Below, in pieces: positions 1 to 7,897 of a stretch of 64,000 bases of DNA. The notes beneath the pieces were generated by a model. That model did not search any database, was not told the DNA's origin, and saw only the letters and a list, made by a program, of their open reading frames with translations. The stretch's first letter is position 1. Every line of letters begins with the position of its first letter. The stretch lies in the NCBI GenBank assembly GCA_902586125.1, contig CACIGI010000003.1, forward strand, positions 21,407-85,406, given 5' to 3'. A program made the translations under genes and the position numbers. Origin of the DNA: an uncultured Pelagibacteraceae bacterium (lineage in GTDB: Bacteria > Pseudomonadota > Alphaproteobacteria > Pelagibacterales > Pelagibacteraceae).

Positions 1-374
1 TTTGTAATGGCTTTTAAATTTCTCATTAGTCCAAGTTTAGAACTATCTGAAATAGCAATATGTAAAGTTTTTCCATCAATCTTGAAAGGTGCTACGAAAT
101 TAATTTTTATATAATTTGATGGTAAAACTGCTTTTATGTCATCTGTGACTTCAACTTTTTTTAAATCAACAGTATCTAAATTTTGCTCTTTGATTAATAG
201 ATTTATTATTTTTTGTTCATCTGTAAGCTTCAATTCAAAGATAGCATCAATTTGAGATTTATTACTCTCAGTGCTTACTTTTTTTATATTTATTAAATCT
301 TTTCCTGATATGATATCGTTATCAATTAAGACATTGACTAAGTTGATTTCACTTTCTCTACTTATTTTTAACAT
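1..374 (-). CDS. Type IV pilus/type II secretion assembly ATPase, N-terminal part (runs off window)
   Basis: This gene is absent from the ORF track because it is cut by the window edge. Translating from the ATG at 374 gives an open frame starting MLKISRESEINLVNVLID, with no stop before base 1. The visible ~124 residues look like the N-terminal domain of GspE/PilB-type secretion ATPases (a helical bundle, then a segment like LPSNYIKINFVAPFKIDGKTL). The ATPase core lies outside the window. Its ATG shares a base with the TAA of the secretin gene (TAATG), so the two are probably translationally coupled. Being last after pilMNOPQ suggests the PilB-type extension motor. An MshE/GspE paralogue is the alternative. 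Confidence 0.72.
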   Translation of the reverse strand, partial: MLKISRESEINLVNVLIDNDIISGKDLINIKKVSTESNKSQIDAIFELKLTDEQKIINLLIKEQNLDTVDLKKVEVTDDIKAVLPSNYIKINFVAPFKIDGKTLHIAISDSSKLGLMRNLKAIT

Positions 375-1927
375 TATAAGATCCTTGGAGCTATAAATAC
401 CAATAGTTCATTCATAGTATCAGCTTTAGAAGTACCTTTAAATAGGCCCCCTACTATTGGCGCATTGCTTACACCAGGAACTCCTCTCTTAAGGTCAGAA
501 ATTTGGTTTTTCTTTATTCCACCTATTACTACAATATCACCATCAGCAACTAATAATTTAGTATTAATTTCCATTGTGTTTATACCAGGAGTGCCGGGGG
601 TTGATCTGTTTGGAGTGTCGTTATTTACTACGATTTTCAACATAACGTTCCCATCTCCAATAATATTAGGTGTAACCGTAAGTTTTAGAGCAGCATCAGC
701 AAATGTATCAGCACCTTCTCCTCCAGACACGGGTATTTGTTCCCCTTGTTTAATACTGGCAGTTTGATTGTCTAGGGTAAACAATTTTGGATTAGAAACT
801 GTTCTTCCTAACCCTTGAGATTCCAACGCATCTAGTTCAATTTTTAATACTGCTGAGCCAGTTGCTTTTAAAATACCTATTCCACTTGTAGCACCAGCGG
901 TTCCAAAACTAAAAAGATTATCTGGTCCTGCTCCAGAAGAAAAAGATGCTGAGTTCGAAGAAATTTCTCCCGTGCTATCAAAAGGTCCACCAACTGTACT
1001 ACCGCCTATAGTACCACCAATTCTCTCACCATTTCGAGTGTAGACTGCGCCCATTTTTTTTCCTAAAGCTTTTTCAAAAGATGAGGTCGCCTCTACAATA
1101 AAAGCCTCAATTAATACTTGTTTAGTTCTTTTATCTATTTCTCTTATAACCTTATCAACAATATCTAAATCTTTCTCTTTACCTCTAACAATTATTGATC
1201 TCGTTGTTTTTTCTTCAGTAACCTGGATAGGCATAAAACTTGCACCTGAACCAACAGATGTAAATAATTCTGTAATTGTTGCTTTAGCTTCTGCCGGAGA
1301 AATATAATATAATCTAAATATTTCTGAAATTATAGGTTCTACAGAGTCCTCAAGTTCAACTTTCTTTTTAACTGCTGACGCCCTTGCTGATTTATAACTT
1401 TCTTGTGATGTTAAATTAGAGGGAGTTGATACTCTTATAATATTACTTGCAACATCAATGTCTGCTGCGTAACTTTTTAAATCTAAAAGAGCATTAAATG
1501 CTTTATCCCAAGGAACATTTTCTAGCTCTGCACTCACAGCTCCAGCAACTTCCTCACCAACTAATATATTAATATTGCCAATCTCAGCCATTAGTGCCAT
1601 CGCTTCTTTATAATCAAGATTTTGAAATTTGAATGAAACGTTTTGTTTTAAAGACTCAAAATCCTCAGAAATTAATAAATAATTTCTTTCTTTAACTGAG
1701 GATAATTGTTTTCTTTTTTTTAGTTTTATAACATCGCCTTCGATAGGAATTGGTCCCATTTCAGCACTTTTCTCCAATTCTTTTTTTCCTAATTCTTTAA
1801 CATCAGTTTTGATCAGAGGTGTGTCATGCTTAAATACCTTTTTTTTAGCCATTTTATCAGCACAGCCTGTCAACAATAAGATTAAAAAAGGAATTAATAG
1901 GTAGGATGTTTTATTTTTAAACTTCAT
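374..1927 (-). CDS. pilQ: PilQ-type outer-membrane secretin (lipoprotein)
   Basis: This forms the outer-membrane ring through which the type IV pilus passes. The N-terminus is a lipoprotein signal with lipobox LLTGC (Cys22). An STN-like domain follows at about residues 95-170 (FKFQNLDYKEAMALMAEIG, then ELENVPWDKAFNALL), then an N1-type domain at about 200-275 (SIIVRGKEKDLDIVDKVI). The C-terminal secretin domain runs from about 275 to the end, with the typical GIKKN and ELLVFIAPRIL endings. At 517 aa it is shorter than many PilQ proteins because the N-terminal AMIN repeats are missing, so it resembles MshL/PilQ short forms. It lies 3 nt after the pilP-like gene and overlaps the downstream ATPase start. 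PilQ rather than MshL is preferred because of the pilMNOP order. Confidence 0.9.
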   Translation of the reverse strand: MKFKNKTSYLLIPFLILLLTGCADKMAKKKVFKHDTPLIKTDVKELGKKELEKSAEMGPIPIEGDVIKLKKRKQLSSVKERNYLLISEDFESLKQNVSFKFQNLDYKEAMALMAEIGNINILVGEEVAGAVSAELENVPWDKAFNALLDLKSYAADIDVASNIIRVSTPSNLTSQESYKSARASAVKKKVELEDSVEPIISEIFRLYYISPAEAKATITELFTSVGSGASFMPIQVTEEKTTRSIIVRGKEKDLDIVDKVIREIDKRTKQVLIEAFIVEATSSFEKALGKKMGAVYTRNGERIGGTIGGSTVGGPFDSTGEISSNSASFSSGAGPDNLFSFGTAGATSGIGILKATGSAVLKIELDALESQGLGRTVSNPKLFTLDNQTASIKQGEQIPVSGGEGADTFADAALKLTVTPNIIGDGNVMLKIVVNNDTPNRSTPGTPGINTMEINTKLLVADGDIVVIGGIKKNQISDLKRGVPGVSNAPIVGGLFKGTSKADTMNELLVFIAPRIL

Positions 1928-1930
1928 AAA

Positions 1931-2434
1931 TTAAAAACTTCTCTCAGTAATTTGATTTTTAAAATTTATTACTAGTAACGATTCACTATTCTTTTCAAAA
2001 ACTGCTTCTTTGTTATTGATTGCAACTAATTTTATTCCTGGGCTTAATTCCTCAAACAAGCTTACAGTGATAATGTCTCCGCCTGCATTTACTAAAGATA
2101 CAAACCCGCCATTTTTTTCAGACTTCATAACTCCCACAAGTTTAAATTTATATAAACTCATTTCATTCTGAGCCTCTTTTGGGTCGTTGGTCAATATAGC
2201 ACCTCCTGTTAAAGAACTATCACCAACAAAAGGATCATTTAGCGGAAGTGGTTCTTCTTTACTTATCTCAGACGATATGTTTGCTTGTGATTTTGCTTGC
2301 TTCTCTTTAATTTTTTGATTTATCTCTTTAGCTTTATCTAAAATATTTTGTTCTGTATCATGGCTATCAGCCATTGATGTATTTGAGATCAACATAAAGA
2401 ATAAAGAGATAAAGAATATTTTAAAAAAATTCAT
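1931..2434 (-). CDS. pilP: PilP-like periplasmic pilus assembly protein
   Basis: This probably links the inner-membrane PilNO complex to the PilQ secretin. The first ~22 residues form a Sec signal peptide (hydrophobic FFISLFFMLIS, ending SMA|DS). Unlike classical PilP, no lipobox cysteine is seen. A lysine/glutamine-rich stretch follows, then a DPFVGDS segment and a C-terminal beta domain (YKFKLVGVMKSEKNGGFVSL) resembling the PilP/GspC homology region. At 167 aa it is of normal PilP size. Its start overlaps the end of the pilO-like gene by 14 nt, and pilQ follows after 3 nt. The call rests on the homology-region pattern and on position, since PilP sequences diverge strongly. Confidence 0.78.
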   Translation of the reverse strand: MNFFKIFFISLFFMLISNTSMADSHDTEQNILDKAKEINQKIKEKQAKSQANISSEISKEEPLPLNDPFVGDSSLTGGAILTNDPKEAQNEMSLYKFKLVGVMKSEKNGGFVSLVNAGGDIITVSLFEELSPGIKLVAINNKEAVFEKNSESLLVINFKNQITERSF

Positions 2435-3107
2435 CAGGTAAACCCACTATTGTTAATGTTCCTCTCACTTTTATCGCTCCAGTTGAATCTCCTTTTACCA
2501 CCTGTATAGACTCTTTGTCAAAGTTTAACATCTTATTGGATAGCGAGAGAGCTCTTTTAAATTTAATATATCCAATAAAATTGCCATCAATTTCAAAAGT
2601 AACGGGAATTAAATAATAAGCGACATTCTTTTTATTAATAGTTTGATTTGTTTTATTTGATTTAGCTTTTTTTCCATCTGCCTTAGCTAAAGCTTCAGTT
2701 TTCATAACCCTTTTAATCTCTTTTTTCTCAATTTTTGAGATGACTAAATCATTTTGTCCTGCAAAAACACTCAATGTTTGGTAAAGACCCTCTACCTCAG
2801 CTTTTGAATGAAACAGACTAGAATACTTTTCGTATTCTGGTTTAAGTGTTTTAATTCTTGCTTTCATTTTTTTAACATCATTAACAAACTGAACAGTCTC
2901 TAATTTCTTTTTATTCATATCATCTAACTTGGCTTTTCTCGAATTAACCATGGGATTTAGAACAGCGTAATAAATGATTAAAAACAAAACAACAGCACCA
3001 AAAATAATTCCAATTTTTGTTACTAATTTTTTGTTTGCTAATAATTTTGTAATCTGTTCTTTGACGTCAGACATATTTATGTTTTTTAAATCAATATTCA
3101 TTGCCAT
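2421..3107 (-). CDS. pilO: PilO-like inner-membrane alignment protein
   Basis: This is a bitopic inner-membrane protein that pairs with PilN in the alignment subcomplex of the pilus machine. It has a short cytoplasmic tail and one transmembrane segment at about residues 32-50 (IGIIFGAVVLFLIIYYAVL). A lysine-rich coiled-coil stretch follows (RKAKLDDMNKKKLETVQFVNDVKKM), then a PilO-type ferredoxin-like periplasmic domain (LYQTLSVFAGQNDLVISKIE; VTFEIDGNFIGYIKFKRALS). At 228 aa it has the usual size. It lies 2 nt after the PilM-PilN fusion. Sequence identity in this family is low, so the name depends partly on gene order. Confidence 0.82.
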   Translation of the reverse strand: MAMNIDLKNINMSDVKEQITKLLANKKLVTKIGIIFGAVVLFLIIYYAVLNPMVNSRKAKLDDMNKKKLETVQFVNDVKKMKARIKTLKPEYEKYSSLFHSKAEVEGLYQTLSVFAGQNDLVISKIEKKEIKRVMKTEALAKADGKKAKSNKTNQTINKKNVAYYLIPVTFEIDGNFIGYIKFKRALSLSNKMLNFDKESIQVVKGDSTGAIKVRGTLTIVGLPDEFF

Positions 3108-3109
3108 AA

Positions 3110-5584
3110 TTAGCCTCTCTTAATTTTAACTATTACTCTAAAACCTTTCATTGTTGCAGTGCCTGCTCTACCTTTAGGTAACCGCATCGATGATAAAGAT
3201 GCTTGCTCAATTAAATTTTGCTTACCGAGATTATCTATAAACTTTAAAATATCTTGATCACTCGCCGCTACGCCTTGGACTATTAAATTTCGACTACCAT
3301 CATAATCAACCTTATCAAATCTAACTCTATTAGGTACACTCGATGCAACTTGAGCTAAAATTCTATAAGTTAATTCTTTATTCGAGCTCAAAGATTTACT
3401 TAACTTTAACGATGTATTAATTAGACCAAGTTCTTTTGATACTATTTTTTTTTCTTGAACTATTTTTGTGTGATCAGCTTTAACAATTTCGTATTGTTTT
3501 AACTTAGAATTGTATGAAAAAATATTCCAAAAAGATAAGCCAAATAAAACCAAATATATTCCAGCTACAGCAGCTGTAATTCCTTTAAAAGCAAATCCAG
3601 AAATAGCCTTCATCTTTTTTTGCTTCATTACACTTGATCTATCAGGTAATAGGTTGATGTTTTTTACAGCGGTTACGAATTTATAGTAACCAAAAACGTC
3701 CAGTTTTCTAAAAGCTAAACCAACAGCTGTTGATAGAAAAGATCTATCTGCTTTACTATCTAAAGTTTGTTGATATTGACTTGGAATTTTTAATCCTTCT
3801 GTTGGATCAAATGTATTAAAACCAACATTCATCAAACTTTTTCTGAAGCTCCCTAAATATTCCTCAAGATTCTCAATATCAGAAACTACTCTAATATTTC
3901 TTATTCTTTTTTCGTATTTTGTCTCAAAATCTTGTATCGCTTGTTTAACTTGAGTTACATATCTTCTTACTAAACCCTCTTTTTCTTCAGCATCCTGTGA
4001 CTCTTGCAATATTTTTCTATCTTGCCCTCTAATGAAAATGTCAGTGATTATGGGATTATTATCATAGAGTATCATTAAATAATTTTCATCTAAACCAAAC
4101 TCTAAAACTGCAGTTAAATTTGCATCTTCTGGCTTATTTGCTAGTTGATTTGACTGATCTACTGCAGATTTTAATGCAAAACACTTAACATCAATAATAA
4201 CTGGATTTAATCCTGCATTTTTTATTATTGAGGTGTAACTGTTTATATCGGTTAGTTTTGATGCAACGAATAATATATCCATTGTATTATCTTTTTCATT
4301 TCTATTAATCACTTGGTGAAAAATAGAATAATCTTCTAAATTGTCAGTAAGTTGAACTAAATTTTCCCATAATGAGTTTGTTTCAATAGCTTTATTTAAT
4401 TCATCATCTTTCATGAGAGGTGCAGTCACAACTCTTATAATTGCACTTGTTACAGGAATTGAAATTGCAACATTTGGTGATGAAATCTTATATTTTTGAA
4501 TTGCAAGACTAAGTTCCTCTGAAAATTTATCAGCATTTTCAATTGGAGTGCTGTCATCTGTAATATTAACAGGATGTATATAAAGCTTATCTAGTACCCA
4601 TTGGTTAGCTTTATTACTTGAAACTTGAACCAATCTTATTTCTTTGTTAGCAAGTTCAACACCTAATATTTCCTCACCTTGTACACTTGATTTTCCCAAT
4701 TTAGATTTTAAAAAATTTTCAAACTTTGATTTAAAACTACCTAATTTAGATTTATTAAAAGTTTTTTTATTTGATTTGTTTGCAAATGAAGGTTTACTTA
4801 TTTTAATCTCTTTTAATTTTCCAAAAATATTAGAGAGTTTTCCTTTTAATTGATCTTGTTTACTTTGTTCAGCGTTTTCGCTTTCAGTAACCGGAGAGAC
4901 TTGTGTTTGTGTTTGGTTTGAGGTGGTATCAATTGTCGTCTTTACCTCATCTGATACTGTTGTTGTATCTTGAGGTTCTTGTATGTTCTCTAATGTTGAA
5001 ATATTTTCATCTAAATCACTTTGATTTTCATTAATTTGGTTATCATTAATTTGATTTTTTAATTTTTCACTTTCTTTTTGAACATCGTCATACCATTTTT
5101 CTAAAATTGGAATTGCTTCATCTAAATTAGTTGTGCCTGAAGATGAAATTTTTTGTTTTCCGTCAATATAAAGTCTACCAACCCAATTTTTTGACTTCAA
5201 TTCGCCCTTATATTTATCTTGTCTAACATAAATGTGTAATCGGCCATCTTTTTTATGTATTACTTGGTGACTAGAACTAGCCTCTTCGTCTTTTTTTTCA
5301 CTTAGAGCATCTGAGCTTTGATTTTCGTTAGCACCCTGTGGGTCTGTGTCATTATTTTTAGAGACAGGGTCTTGATTTTCATCTTTTTTTTCGTTTGAAG
5401 CCTCAAAAACATTTGTTTGATCATTGTTTTGATCAACATTTTGATTTTCATTTTTTAAATTATCATCAGAGGAGATTTTTACACTCTCAGATTGAGAGGT
5501 TTCATCAACTAGAGGTTGATTTTCTGAATTACCCTCAGTTGAGTCCTGATTTATATTTTTTTTATCGTCGTCTTGATCGTTCAT
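3110..5584 (-). CDS. pilM/pilN: PilM-PilN fusion with N-terminal acidic tail and integrase-arm/AP2-like module
   Basis: Two pilus genes appear fused. Residues ~1-108 are an Asp/Glu/Asn/Gln/Ser-rich, probably disordered tail. Residues ~116-175 form a compact beta-beta-beta-alpha-like module (GRLHIYVRQ; WVGRLYIDGKQKISSSGTTN; LDEAIPILEKWYDDV) that resembles integrase arm-binding or AP2 DNA-binding folds. A low-complexity linker follows. An actin-like PilM domain spans about 305-640 (LGVELANKEIRLVQVSS). PilN begins at INLLPDR (~646), with a membrane helix at ~670-692 (AAVAGIYLVLFGLSFWNIF), then a coiled coil and a periplasmic domain. In standard operons PilM is cytoplasmic and binds the INLLP tail of PilN; here that contact is made covalent. 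The ORF track begins at TTG 5590, but the ATG at 5584 (MNDQDDD) is more likely. The DNA-binding reading is inference. Confidence 0.85.
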   Translation of the reverse strand: MNDQDDDKKNINQDSTEGNSENQPLVDETSQSESVKISSDDNLKNENQNVDQNNDQTNVFEASNEKKDENQDPVSKNNDTDPQGANENQSSDALSEKKDEEASSSHQVIHKKDGRLHIYVRQDKYKGELKSKNWVGRLYIDGKQKISSSGTTNLDEAIPILEKWYDDVQKESEKLKNQINDNQINENQSDLDENISTLENIQEPQDTTTVSDEVKTTIDTTSNQTQTQVSPVTESENAEQSKQDQLKGKLSNIFGKLKEIKISKPSFANKSNKKTFNKSKLGSFKSKFENFLKSKLGKSSVQGEEILGVELANKEIRLVQVSSNKANQWVLDKLYIHPVNITDDSTPIENADKFSEELSLAIQKYKISSPNVAISIPVTSAIIRVVTAPLMKDDELNKAIETNSLWENLVQLTDNLEDYSIFHQVINRNEKDNTMDILFVASKLTDINSYTSIIKNAGLNPVIIDVKCFALKSAVDQSNQLANKPEDANLTAVLEFGLDENYLMILYDNNPIITDIFIRGQDRKILQESQDAEEKEGLVRRYVTQVKQAIQDFETKYEKRIRNIRVVSDIENLEEYLGSFRKSLMNVGFNTFDPTEGLKIPSQYQQTLDSKADRSFLSTAVGLAFRKLDVFGYYKFVTAVKNINLLPDRSSVMKQKKMKAISGFAFKGITAAVAGIYLVLFGLSFWNIFSYNSKLKQYEIVKADHTKIVQEKKIVSKELGLINTSLKLSKSLSSNKELTYRILAQVASSVPNRVRFDKVDYDGSRNLIVQGVAASDQDILKFIDNLGKQNLIEQASLSSMRLPKGRAGTATMKGFRVIVKIKRG

Positions 5585-5605: not shown

Positions 5606-5659
5606 TCTAACACAATTTTACGAATCTCTAACACAAATTTACAATTAAGTCTAACACAA
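5606..5659. repeat. Repeat cluster A: three copies of TCTAACACAA
   Basis: Exact copies lie at 5606-5615, 5627-5636 and 5650-5659, all in the same orientation. Start-to-start spacings are 21 and 23 bp, close to two DNA helical turns. The first two also share the extension TCTC before TAACACAA. The cluster sits just upstream of the PilM-PilN start codon. On the minus strand the nearest copy reads TTGTGTTAGAG and is followed by an AT-rich stretch that could hold a -10 element, so a bound protein could block or assist RNA polymerase there. Confidence 0.85.
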
Positions 5660-5775
5660 AAATATTTATTATGTTCAAAATGGGCTAAAAAATTTAAAAA
5701 GCTAGTAAAATAGGCATTTTTTATAATTTATAAATTTTAAGTAGAAATATATAAACCTAGTAATTTTCAATTTTC

Positions 5776-5831
5776 TCTAACACAAACATGTTAAATGAAA
5801 TTGTGTTAGAGTAAATTTGATTTGTGTTAGA
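5776..5831. repeat. Repeat cluster B: one forward and two inverted copies
   Basis: TCTAACACAA lies at 5776-5785 and its reverse complement TTGTGTTAGA at 5801-5810 and 5822-5831. The first two form a head-to-head inverted pair (starts 25 bp apart). The last two are direct repeats 21 bp apart and share the longer string TTGTGTTAGAGTAAATTT. The orientation switch falls in the middle of the whole array. Confidence 0.85.
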
Positions 5832-5907
5832 GTAAATTTTATTTTTTTATATTTAAATAAGTCAATAAAATCAACAAAAATGTATTTTTGTCTAAAATTT
5901 ATATATT

Positions 5908-5937
5908 TTGTGTTAGAGTATAATTTTTTGTGTTAGA
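5908..5937. repeat. Repeat cluster C: two copies of TTGTGTTAGA
   Basis: Exact copies lie at 5908-5917 and 5928-5937, 20 bp apart and in the same orientation. Both are preceded by T-runs and followed by GA- or GT-containing AT-rich sequence. Together with clusters A and B this makes eight copies, four in each orientation, arranged nearly symmetrically around about 5793. Confidence 0.85.
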
Positions 5938-6134: not shown

Positions 6135-6437
6135 TTAATTTGGGTTACCTTTTATATCAGTTGTTAATTCTTGATAGATCAAAACAGAGATTGTGTTTAA
6201 ATTTTCTATAACTCTCTCAAAGTCCCATGACAAATCAACATTATTACAATTGAGTTCTCTAAAATAATATACTTCTGTTAATGGAATAGCTGGTTTAATT
6301 TCCGATGCTATAATATTTAATTGCTTAGTTCTTTTTTCAATCGTGAAATTATACCTACAAACATTTGAAGTTGCCCAATACATAAGTGAAATAATAATAA
6401 TTGAAATAAATATCATTACTTTACTTATTCCAAACAT
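6135..6437 (-). CDS. Small membrane-anchored protein of unknown function in the pilus locus
   Basis: This gene is not recognised. The 100-aa product has one N-terminal hydrophobic segment at about residues 6-24 (KVMIFISIIIISLMYWATS). A soluble, probably periplasmic part follows, with two cysteines (SNVCRYNF and ELNCNNVD) that could form a disulfide. It starts 11 nt after the stop of the GAF-SpoIIE phosphatase, so the two are probably co-transcribed. It is the last gene before the repeat-rich non-coding block. It lacks the prepilin G/FxxxE motif, so it is not an obvious pilin. Confidence 0.6.
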   Translation of the reverse strand: MFGISKVMIFISIIIISLMYWATSNVCRYNFTIEKRTKQLNIIASEIKPAIPLTEVYYFRELNCNNVDLSWDFERVIENLNTISVLIYQELTTDIKGNPN

Positions 6438-6448
6438 AAATTAATAAC

Positions 6449-7798
6449 TTAATCCCCGTCAACAACTACAATGGTTAAGTCATCTTTTTGTATTCGACCT
6501 GATTTAATTATATCTTCAACAATTTTATTTAACCTTTCATGATTTGGAACTTGTTGATACTTTTTTATATAATTTTTAAAACCTTCAGACTCCAACATAT
6601 CTCCTTTTGAATTTTTAATTTCAGTAATACCATCGGTAAAAATATACATTGAGCTTTCTTGAAAACTAAATTTTGTTTCTTTAAATTTAAATTTTGGTGC
6701 AATTCCTAATGGTGGTCCAGCTTCTTCAAAATTAGAAAAATTTCCATCCTTAGTATAAATTAATGGATGTTCATGTCCTGCATTCGCTAAAGTTAACTCT
6801 TTTTTATTTCTGTCGTAAATTCCAATTAACATTGTTACAAACATACCTCTTGATGTTGTCTCACAAATTTCAGAATTCAAAATGTTTAATAATTCTGCTG
6901 CAGAAAAATTTGTTTTACTTAAACACCTATATAAGCTTGATGCCTTTGACATTAATAATGAAGATTTAATTCCTTTGCCTGATACATCAGCAACACCAAA
7001 ACCAAAAACTTCTTTAGATAATTCTGCAAAATTATAAAAATCTCCTGAAACAACTTTGGCTGGTATATTTATTCCTGCTATAGGGAAATTTTGCTTTTTA
7101 TTTTGTGACAATAAAGTTTTTTGAATCTCACCAACAATTTCAATTTCTTTCTGCATTCTGTTCTTATCTATTAAATCTTTTGCCATTTTTGCATTATTAA
7201 TTGCTAAAGCTGCTGGTCCAGACAAAGTTTCCAATAACTTTCTATCGTTCTCTTCGAAAAGTTTATTATTTGTTTTTTTATTTAAACAATGGATAACTCC
7301 AATACATTCATCTGAAACAATTAATGGAGAACACAATACTGAATACGTTGTGAAATTTGTTTTGTTATCTAAATCAAAATAAAATTCAGCAATTTCTCTT
7401 ACATCTTTTCTTACATCGCCAACTCTTATACATTTTTTCATCACTGCAGCTTTGCCCATCACACCTTGTGTTATAGGAATTTCAAAATCCTCAAGGTAAG
7501 CTTGATGTTTTGAAGCAATACATTGGAAGGATTGATTTTTTTCATCTATTAGAAAAATGTTTGCTGCTTGTGCATTAATTCTTTTTATAATTAGCTCTAA
7601 AGAATTGTTTAAGGTCTCCTTCAAATCAAGAGACTTTGCAAACTCTTGATTCATTTTAGTCACTAGCTCCAAATCTTTACTACTAGTGTCGTCTATTTTG
7701 ATAGTTTCCTTTTTTTTTGCGCCAAAAAACATGTTATTTATAAATTGATATTCGTTATTTTTTTGATAATTTTGAAGTTGATGGAAGTCATTATTCAT
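6449..7798 (-). CDS. GAF-domain SpoIIE/RsbU-type PP2C serine phosphatase
   Basis: This is a predicted signal-responsive Ser/Thr phosphatase. A GAF domain spans roughly residues 55-200 of the shortened protein (LNNSLELIIKRINAQAANIFLID; GVMGKAAVMKK; SPLIVSDECIGVIHCLNKK). The C-terminal PP2C/SpoIIE domain has the metal-ligand segments GDFYNF, GVADVSGKGIKSSLLM, NAGHEHPLIY, FTDGITEIKN and the terminal DDLTIVVV. Such enzymes usually act on anti-anti-sigma or STAS proteins; no kinase or STAS partner is seen in this window. The ORF track begins at a TTG at 7882, but the ATG at 7798 (MNNDFHQLQ) is preferred and a later Met (MFFGAKKK) is possible. Its place inside the pilus cluster suggests control of pilus activity, which is inference. 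Confidence 0.85.
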   Translation of the reverse strand: MNNDFHQLQNYQKNNEYQFINNMFFGAKKKETIKIDDTSSKDLELVTKMNQEFAKSLDLKETLNNSLELIIKRINAQAANIFLIDEKNQSFQCIASKHQAYLEDFEIPITQGVMGKAAVMKKCIRVGDVRKDVREIAEFYFDLDNKTNFTTYSVLCSPLIVSDECIGVIHCLNKKTNNKLFEENDRKLLETLSGPAALAINNAKMAKDLIDKNRMQKEIEIVGEIQKTLLSQNKKQNFPIAGINIPAKVVSGDFYNFAELSKEVFGFGVADVSGKGIKSSLLMSKASSLYRCLSKTNFSAAELLNILNSEICETTSRGMFVTMLIGIYDRNKKELTLANAGHEHPLIYTKDGNFSNFEEAGPPLGIAPKFKFKETKFSFQESSMYIFTDGITEIKNSKGDMLESEGFKNYIKKYQQVPNHERLNKIVEDIIKSGRIQKDDLTIVVVDGD

Positions 7799-7809
7799 GC
7801 GCCTAATTT

Positions 7810-7866
7810 CTATCTGCACCTGTCTGATGCAATGATGTTCATACAATACTGCATAAATGGGCTCAT
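7810..7866 (-). CDS. Possible 18-codon leader ORF ahead of the phosphatase
   Basis: On the minus strand GAGAGGAAAATTCT is followed by ATG at 7866, giving an ideally spaced Shine-Dalgarno site. The reading frame MSPFMQYCMNIIASDRCR ends with TAG at 7812-7810. The phosphatase ATG (7798) lies 11 nt further on and has only a weak ribosome site. The short ORF could therefore couple translation, or the GAGAGG could serve the TTG start listed in the ORF track. It is too short to judge by coding statistics. Confidence 0.25.
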   Translation of the reverse strand: MSPFMQYCMNIIASDRCR

Positions 7867-7897
7867 AGAATTTTCCTCTCAAATTAAACTATAAATT

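Follow-up and report, generated by a model that had tools for sequence, protein, structure and literature searches.

A phased 10-mer array upstream of the pil operon in Pelagibacteraceae and a candidate integrase-type DNA-binding domain in its PilM-PilN fusion

SAR11 bacteria count among Earth's most abundant cells, and they carry few regulators and little spare DNA. In such a genome, what purpose might be served by a dense array of short repeats directly in front of a type IV pilus operon, and which protein would recognize it? The question is raised by a stretch of 64,000 nucleotides, here called the window, from an uncultured Pelagibacteraceae bacterium. Together with a protein extension of ~250 residues, the array and its surroundings (~550 bp of intergenic space) form a costly module for a streamlined genome. 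The operon begins with a pilM-pilN fusion, followed by pilO-like, pilP-like and pilQ genes:

3113..5584, reverse strand: pilM-pilN fusion, 824 aa, ATG start; PilM_2 at residues 308-512 and PilN at 742-804 (Pfam)
2421..3107, reverse strand: pilO-like gene, from a weak PilO match below the cut-off and its operon position
1931..2434, reverse strand: pilP-like gene, from position only
374..1927, reverse strand: pilQ secretin (Pfam match)

Close upstream of the operon there is also a gene for a GAF and SpoIIE-phosphatase (RsbU-like) protein (6449-7882, reverse strand), an unusual type of regulator in a streamlined genome.

Layout, conservation and helical phasing of the array

The array lies between a short ORF (6135-6437, reverse strand) and the ATG of the 824-aa ORF. 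An earlier note on this DNA had described eight exact 10-mers in front of the pil operon, four per orientation, in three clusters of near-symmetric layout with neighbors 20-25 bp apart within clusters, and a recount confirmed each of these features. Eight exact copies of TCTAACACAA fall within 5606-5937, four on the forward strand (starting at 5606, 5627, 5650 and 5776) and four on the reverse strand (5801, 5822, 5908 and 5928), grouped as 3 + 3 + 2:

5606..5659, forward strand: proximal cluster, three sites (5606-5615, 5627-5636, 5650-5659) spaced 21 and 23 bp apart
5776..5831, both strands: central cluster, a convergent pair (5776-5785 forward, 5801-5810 reverse) plus 5822-5831 (reverse), 25 and 21 bp apart
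5908..5937, reverse strand: distal cluster, two sites (5908-5917, 5928-5937) 20 bp apart

The proximal cluster starts 22 bp 5′ of the pilM ATG and is conserved in the clade of the window (clade A of the PilM tree below). Outside the array the window contains no TCTAACACAA at all, where dinucleotide shuffles give an expectation of 0.29 per window, and elsewhere in the 977-kb genome the 10-mer occurs at chance level, with three further copies, equal to a reversed-pattern control (three); all three are inside coding ORFs. Paired 8-mer cores, either direct with 9-18 bp between them or convergent within 30 bp, are found genome-wide at this locus only. From the low expectation, the control-level genomic count and the restriction of pairs to one place, we conclude that the array is real and confined to a single locus. 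The exclusion of CRISPR in the earlier note also held up: the 10-mers occur in both orientations with short-to-long spacers, and no cas match was seen among the neighbors examined.

The same array and cluster layout recur at nearly all loci with DNA upstream of pilM among 37 named Pelagibacteraceae loci, and every relative with the same form of pilM has kept both the array and its phasing. Across 333 sites in clade A, the ten bases are 96-100% invariant while the spacers are free; the fuller unit is (C)TCTAACACAA(A), with C at position -1 in 80% of the 333 sites. Within clusters the start-to-start distances are 20-23 bp in relatives, the two convergent sites lie 24-25 or 34-35 bp from each other, and the distances between clusters are 85-87 bp or, across genomes, jump to 116, 127, 138, 149 or 161 bp. 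Same-orientation distances of up to 150 bp follow a 10.6-bp period (mean vector R 0.81); when each distinct distance was counted once, the best period was 10.7 bp, with p = 5e-5 at 10.5 bp in a random-integer test. Spacing in steps of ~10.6 bp would hold the sites on one face of the helix, and these distances argue that selection has kept them there while whole turns were inserted or deleted. Two other layouts were observed upstream of pilM in relatives. In G201 (L114 / L056) the array extends over ~800 bp, and the distance from one site to the next alternates between ~50 and ~90 bp; in G189 (L111) it is partly decayed, with many one-mismatch copies and an extra AT-rich repeat of the ATATATTAGAATCTTTCTAAAG kind.

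Helical phasing points to a protein assembly on duplex DNA and thus speaks against readings in which the repeats act as RNA or as an uptake sequence. Pili can take up DNA, and repeats 5′ of a pil gene could accordingly be a DNA-uptake sequence, or else an iteron, a parS or a repeat acting at the RNA level in a 5′ UTR; to this group of readings we give hardly any weight. The 10-mer is not enriched genome-wide, which argues against an uptake sequence. The parS/iteron-like element proposed in the earlier note is disfavored as well, because the array occupies one locus, its unit is a non-palindromic 10-11-mer as against the 16-bp palindrome of parS, and no replication gene is present among the neighbors examined. 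Searches of Rfam returned nothing above threshold, and both the phasing and the presence of sites in two orientations suit duplex DNA better than an RNA-level repeat. RNA hairpins formed by the inverted copies were considered and dropped, in view of the phasing and of the loss of the array together with a protein domain, to which we now turn.

An integrase-type domain in PilM-PilN and its association with the array

PilM-PilN is longer than a fusion of this kind requires. Its N-terminal extension, the first ~250 residues, consists of acidic linkers of low conservation around one ~60-residue domain:

5066..5266, reverse strand: integrase-type, arm-binding-like domain of PilM, residues ~107-173 (homology, AlphaFold2)

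Within clade A, conservation differs along the chain, pairwise identity being 94% in the domain, 81% in the PilM core, 64% in the PilN part and 13-22% in the linkers; between clades A and C, the domain is 85% identical and the PilM core 54%. An AlphaFold2 model of the domain (pLDDT 86) has a beta-beta-beta-alpha arrangement (E2-5 E10-19 E22-34 E37-42 H48-70). This is the secondary structure of arm-binding domains (PMC8138268), which recognize short arm sites on either side of the core attachment site, as established for lambda Int (PMC8138268). A homologue is the N-terminal domain of an integrase from the SAR11 genome G181 (63% identity). A profile built from the PilM, G181 and viral versions was searched against 240 Alphaproteobacteria and identified four tyrosine recombinases, each with the domain at its N-terminus (E 2e-4 to 0.009); apart from PilM and two PurF matches, which were checked and found to be chance, only recombinases were retrieved. 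Likewise, hhalign against recombinase N-domains gave 94-97% probability (94%, pairwise E 1e-7, for a PilM-only profile). Together, these comparisons argue for homology between the PilM N-domain and the arm-binding domain at the N-terminus of tyrosine recombinases. The domain alone had no significant match in Pfam, PHROGs or PDB sequences, and Foldseek searches of the PDB with two domain models gave no significant match, so that homology and secondary structure are the grounds for assigning the fold. A search of phage GenBank records found no match, and weak domain matches among 297 relatives, to SecD-like, histidine kinase, CoA-transferase and other proteins, turned out on inspection to be chance. 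The recombinase core-binding and catalytic domains are absent from PilM-PilN, which has PilM_2 and PilN instead. With a hydrophobic helix at ~671-689, in the PilN part, the protein carries a DNA-binding-like N-domain and a membrane segment on one chain.

In G181, the domain forms the N-terminus of a tyrosine recombinase of 425 aa (Pfam PF00589 above cut-off; L110:2958-4235, reverse strand) that adjoins a serine-recombinase gene and a tRNA-Leu(caa) gene (2854-2937), with a tRNA-like fragment also visible at ~4350-4395. The flanks of this integrase, ~400 bp in all, contain TCTTACACAA at 2786 and TCTAACACAT at 2813 on the forward strand, and TCTTACACAA at 4274 and TCTTACATAA at 4285 on the reverse strand. 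All four are near-copies of the 10-mer at pil and converge in the same way. The 8-kb locus has seven one-mismatch matches, of which four fall in these flanks, which make up 5% of its length. G181 yielded no pilM, so the domain and the motif pair up here without the pilus gene, and we regard these sites as the strongest independent clue, at the level of sequence, that would tie the domain to the 10-mer.

The domain was also seen in five IMG/VR contigs (L165:4983-5330, L166, L167:1828-2178, L168 and L169), as a ~115-aa protein comprising the domain and a single C-terminal membrane helix, which indicates that membrane attachment of the domain arose elsewhere too. These five records have no 10-mer array, and phage records with the domain contain single 10-mer matches only, at control level. 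Viral contigs with two 10-mers were inspected and proved to hold unrelated repeats.

We then compared the distribution of domain and array. Among 297 relatives, the domain is present in 39 (E < 1e-20) and tandem 10-mers in 36, all 36 falling within the 39; the remaining three are G189 and G210, which have variant arrays, and G181, in which the domain belongs to the integrase. Among 399 Pelagibacter genomes it is present in 73, and in 72 of these it is part of PilM. Every domain-PilM locus with at least 400 bp of upstream DNA (49/49) has 4-8 exact copies of the 10-mer, with a median of 7, whereas pil operons without the domain are without the array (exact copies at 0/40 domain-less PilM loci). 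One genome, G450, was set apart from the class without the domain, since its gene is broken and the upstream DNA still has three exact sites. A PilM-core tree was rooted with order-level outgroups that lack the domain. Domain and array are both present in the basal clade C and in clade A, to which the window belongs, whereas clade B, the sister of A, has neither, and the gap upstream of pilM is ~108 bp in B as compared with ~550 bp in A and ~357 bp in C. Nested within clade B, G084 again has both. Domain and array each change three times on the tree, with no disagreement in 96 rows. These changes represent only two to three independent events, so the association is exact but phylogenetically thin.

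Could the array instead be bound by a separately encoded regulator, the PilM domain binding something else and simply being inherited along with it? Neighboring features that are co-inherited in so few events could give such a pattern. However, the G181 integrase has the domain and near-copies of the 10-mer at its ends where no pilM was found, the array is lost exactly with the domain while the rest of the operon remains, and the genome has no other paired sites, which would be odd for a general regulator; we consider a separate regulator quite unlikely. The nucleation site for a nucleoid protein suggested in the earlier note fares no better, as the array is present at one locus only and follows the integrase-type domain in PilM. 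The pairing of domain and array is, in our assessment, strongly supported by these comparisons, and the protein that binds the array is probably encoded by the adjacent gene, pilM-pilN.

A proposed role for the array in pil expression

Three further elements lie among the clusters:

5668..5686, reverse strand: ACCCAAAATGAGCAT-like block, conserved, directly upstream of the proximal cluster
5695..5715, reverse strand: second copy of element M, degenerate here, between the proximal and the central cluster, from alignment
5855..5875, reverse strand: element M, GTTGATTTTATTGACTTTTTT on the pilM strand, ~21 bp, midway between the distal and central clusters

Element M is fixed at 42/44 bp from its flanking sites in most clade A genomes. 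Its second copy is clear in relatives and inverted in one subclade; in the window, this copy went unscored at up to 6 mismatches. Since its orientation can flip, element M is unlikely to be a promoter. The complement of M combines an A-tract with WATCAA, as in IHF-type sites, without the full IHF consensus, and the genome has three IHF/HU-family genes; M is thus possibly a site for a DNA-bending protein. Domain-less pil loci have only weak M matches, at the shuffled expectation. The ACCCAAAATGAGCAT-like block, on the other hand, has a similar form (by eye in clade B) in domain-less pil loci, and for this reason it is probably part of the basic pil promoter, or else the site of another regulator. 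Sigma-70 scans of the region upstream of pilM performed no better than controls, so the proposal that the sites cover the promoter is one of position.

Based on these results, we consider it fairly probable that the array is a multi-site operator for the operon's own first product, PilM-PilN, which would regulate its own synthesis through an exapted arm-binding domain. We propose that PilM-PilN, the inner-membrane platform protein of the type IV pilus, acquired at its cytoplasmic N-terminus the arm-type domain of a phage or island tyrosine recombinase, joined to it by a linker that is long, acidic and flexible. The domain would recognize arm-type sites of ~10-11 bp, (C)TCTAACACAA, and several PilM-PilN molecules would bind the phased clusters around the pilM promoter region cooperatively. 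They may thereby compact the 350 bp into a folded complex like the one that an integrase builds on its attachment site, with element M as a possible bend, and this complex would cover the promoter region and the pilM start. Occupancy of the array would then repress pilMNOPQ transcription or set its level. Repression is the most likely effect, given that the promoter-like block has clusters on either side of it and that the nearest site ends ~20 bp before the start codon. In this manner the amount or assembly state of the platform would feed back on its own gene, with the trigger and the direction of this feedback being our inference; feedback repression of pilMNOPQ would be the simplest outcome. 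Of the functions raised in the earlier note, the multi-site operator is thus the best-supported, given that the array is conserved and phased, and that part stands; autoregulation is an extension that we infer from the layout. A bolder version, that the pilus platform is wired to the chromosome by an intasome-like complex at the membrane, so that the assembly or mechanical state of the pilus sets transcription, and possibly position, without a separate regulator, is tentative and on balance doubtful.

Repression, activation and mere tethering predict similar anatomy, and the main rival to autoregulation is a membrane tether, in which binding of the domain to the array would anchor the pil locus, and with it part of the chromosome, to the membrane platform, for example to place the machine, to couple it to the nucleoid or to provide a centromere-like handle, any effect on transcription being secondary. 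PilM has an actin-like fold, and such a role would be in keeping with this fold, with the carriage of the domain on a protein anchored by the hydrophobic helix of its PilN part, with the long flexible linkers, which are suitable for a tether, and with the IMG/VR proteins, in which the domain and one C-terminal membrane helix make a membrane-bound DNA-binding domain without a machine. Yet an operator requires just such a single array per genome, placed at its own promoter region near the start codon, whereas a tether has no need of it. Furthermore, pil loci without the module are common, which argues against an essential role in segregation. We therefore regard the tether as unlikely.

Another possibility is that the array is the attP or arm region, live or recently dead, of a mobile element, with the pil locus as an integrating island. 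The layout is compatible with this, in that arm-type sites of either orientation surround a bending-like element, and so is the patchiness of the pil operon: of 399 Pelagibacter genomes, many of which are incomplete, 134 yielded this pilM. However, neither the operon nor the adjacent genes examined include a recombinase, and a recombinase catalytic domain is missing from the PilM fusion. The gene upstream of the array differs between clades while the array stays directly before the pilM start, and both the sites and the domain are under strong purifying selection. An attachment site is for these reasons very improbable.

Should the pairing of domain and array be true, a structural part of the pilus would be its own DNA-binding regulator, assembled from a mobile-element domain and arm-type sites. 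The module is optional among related pil operons, which provides a natural experiment, and a near-invariant domain with invariant sites makes a clean binding test easy.

Relation to known systems

The arrangement beside pilM recalls ParMRC, in which a short-repeat array (parC) beside an actin-like gene is bound by a cognate DNA-binding protein. The pil module resembles these systems (e.g. PMC4911067, PMC9426499) in having a short-repeat array adjoining an actin-like gene; in contrast, its operon has no ribbon-helix-helix ParR, its sites lie in both orientations and on the chromosome, and the actin-like fold and the DNA-binding domain are part of one membrane-anchored chain.

The closest parallel for the domain itself is found in the AB domains and arm sites of tyrosine recombinases such as lambda Int and Tn916 Int (PMC8138268), with which PilM-PilN shares homology and a predicted beta-beta-beta-alpha structure. 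The sites are alike too, being short (~10 bp), phased and in both orientations, and near-identical ones flank the G181 integrase. PilM-PilN differs in having no core-binding or catalytic domain, in its fusion to a pilus protein and in the placement of the array at a promoter region. Exaptation of a tyrosine-recombinase-type DNA-binding domain in a host regulatory protein has been described for the ALOG proteins of plants (PMC3537659). That case involves another recombinase domain in a eukaryote and no membrane machine, whereas the pil case also presents a matching site array.

With regard to regulation, ArnR and ArnR1 of Sulfolobus are membrane-bound one-component regulators of type-IV-pili-type structures (PMC6396743). 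Like these proteins and ToxR/CadC, PilM-PilN is predicted to combine a DNA-binding domain and a membrane segment on one chain, and with ArnR/ArnR1 it further shares a link to pilus-type machinery. It differs from ToxR/CadC and ArnR in that it is a structural platform protein, that its domain derives from an integrase and is not a winged helix, and that it faces about eight sites. In the titles and abstracts seen of open-access papers, no PilM was described as carrying a DNA-binding domain. By analogy with these systems, we propose that the PilM-PilN module is a membrane-bound one-component regulator with an integrase-type multi-site operator complex. Its parts are of known kinds and their combination is new, the new content being the cognate domain in PilM.
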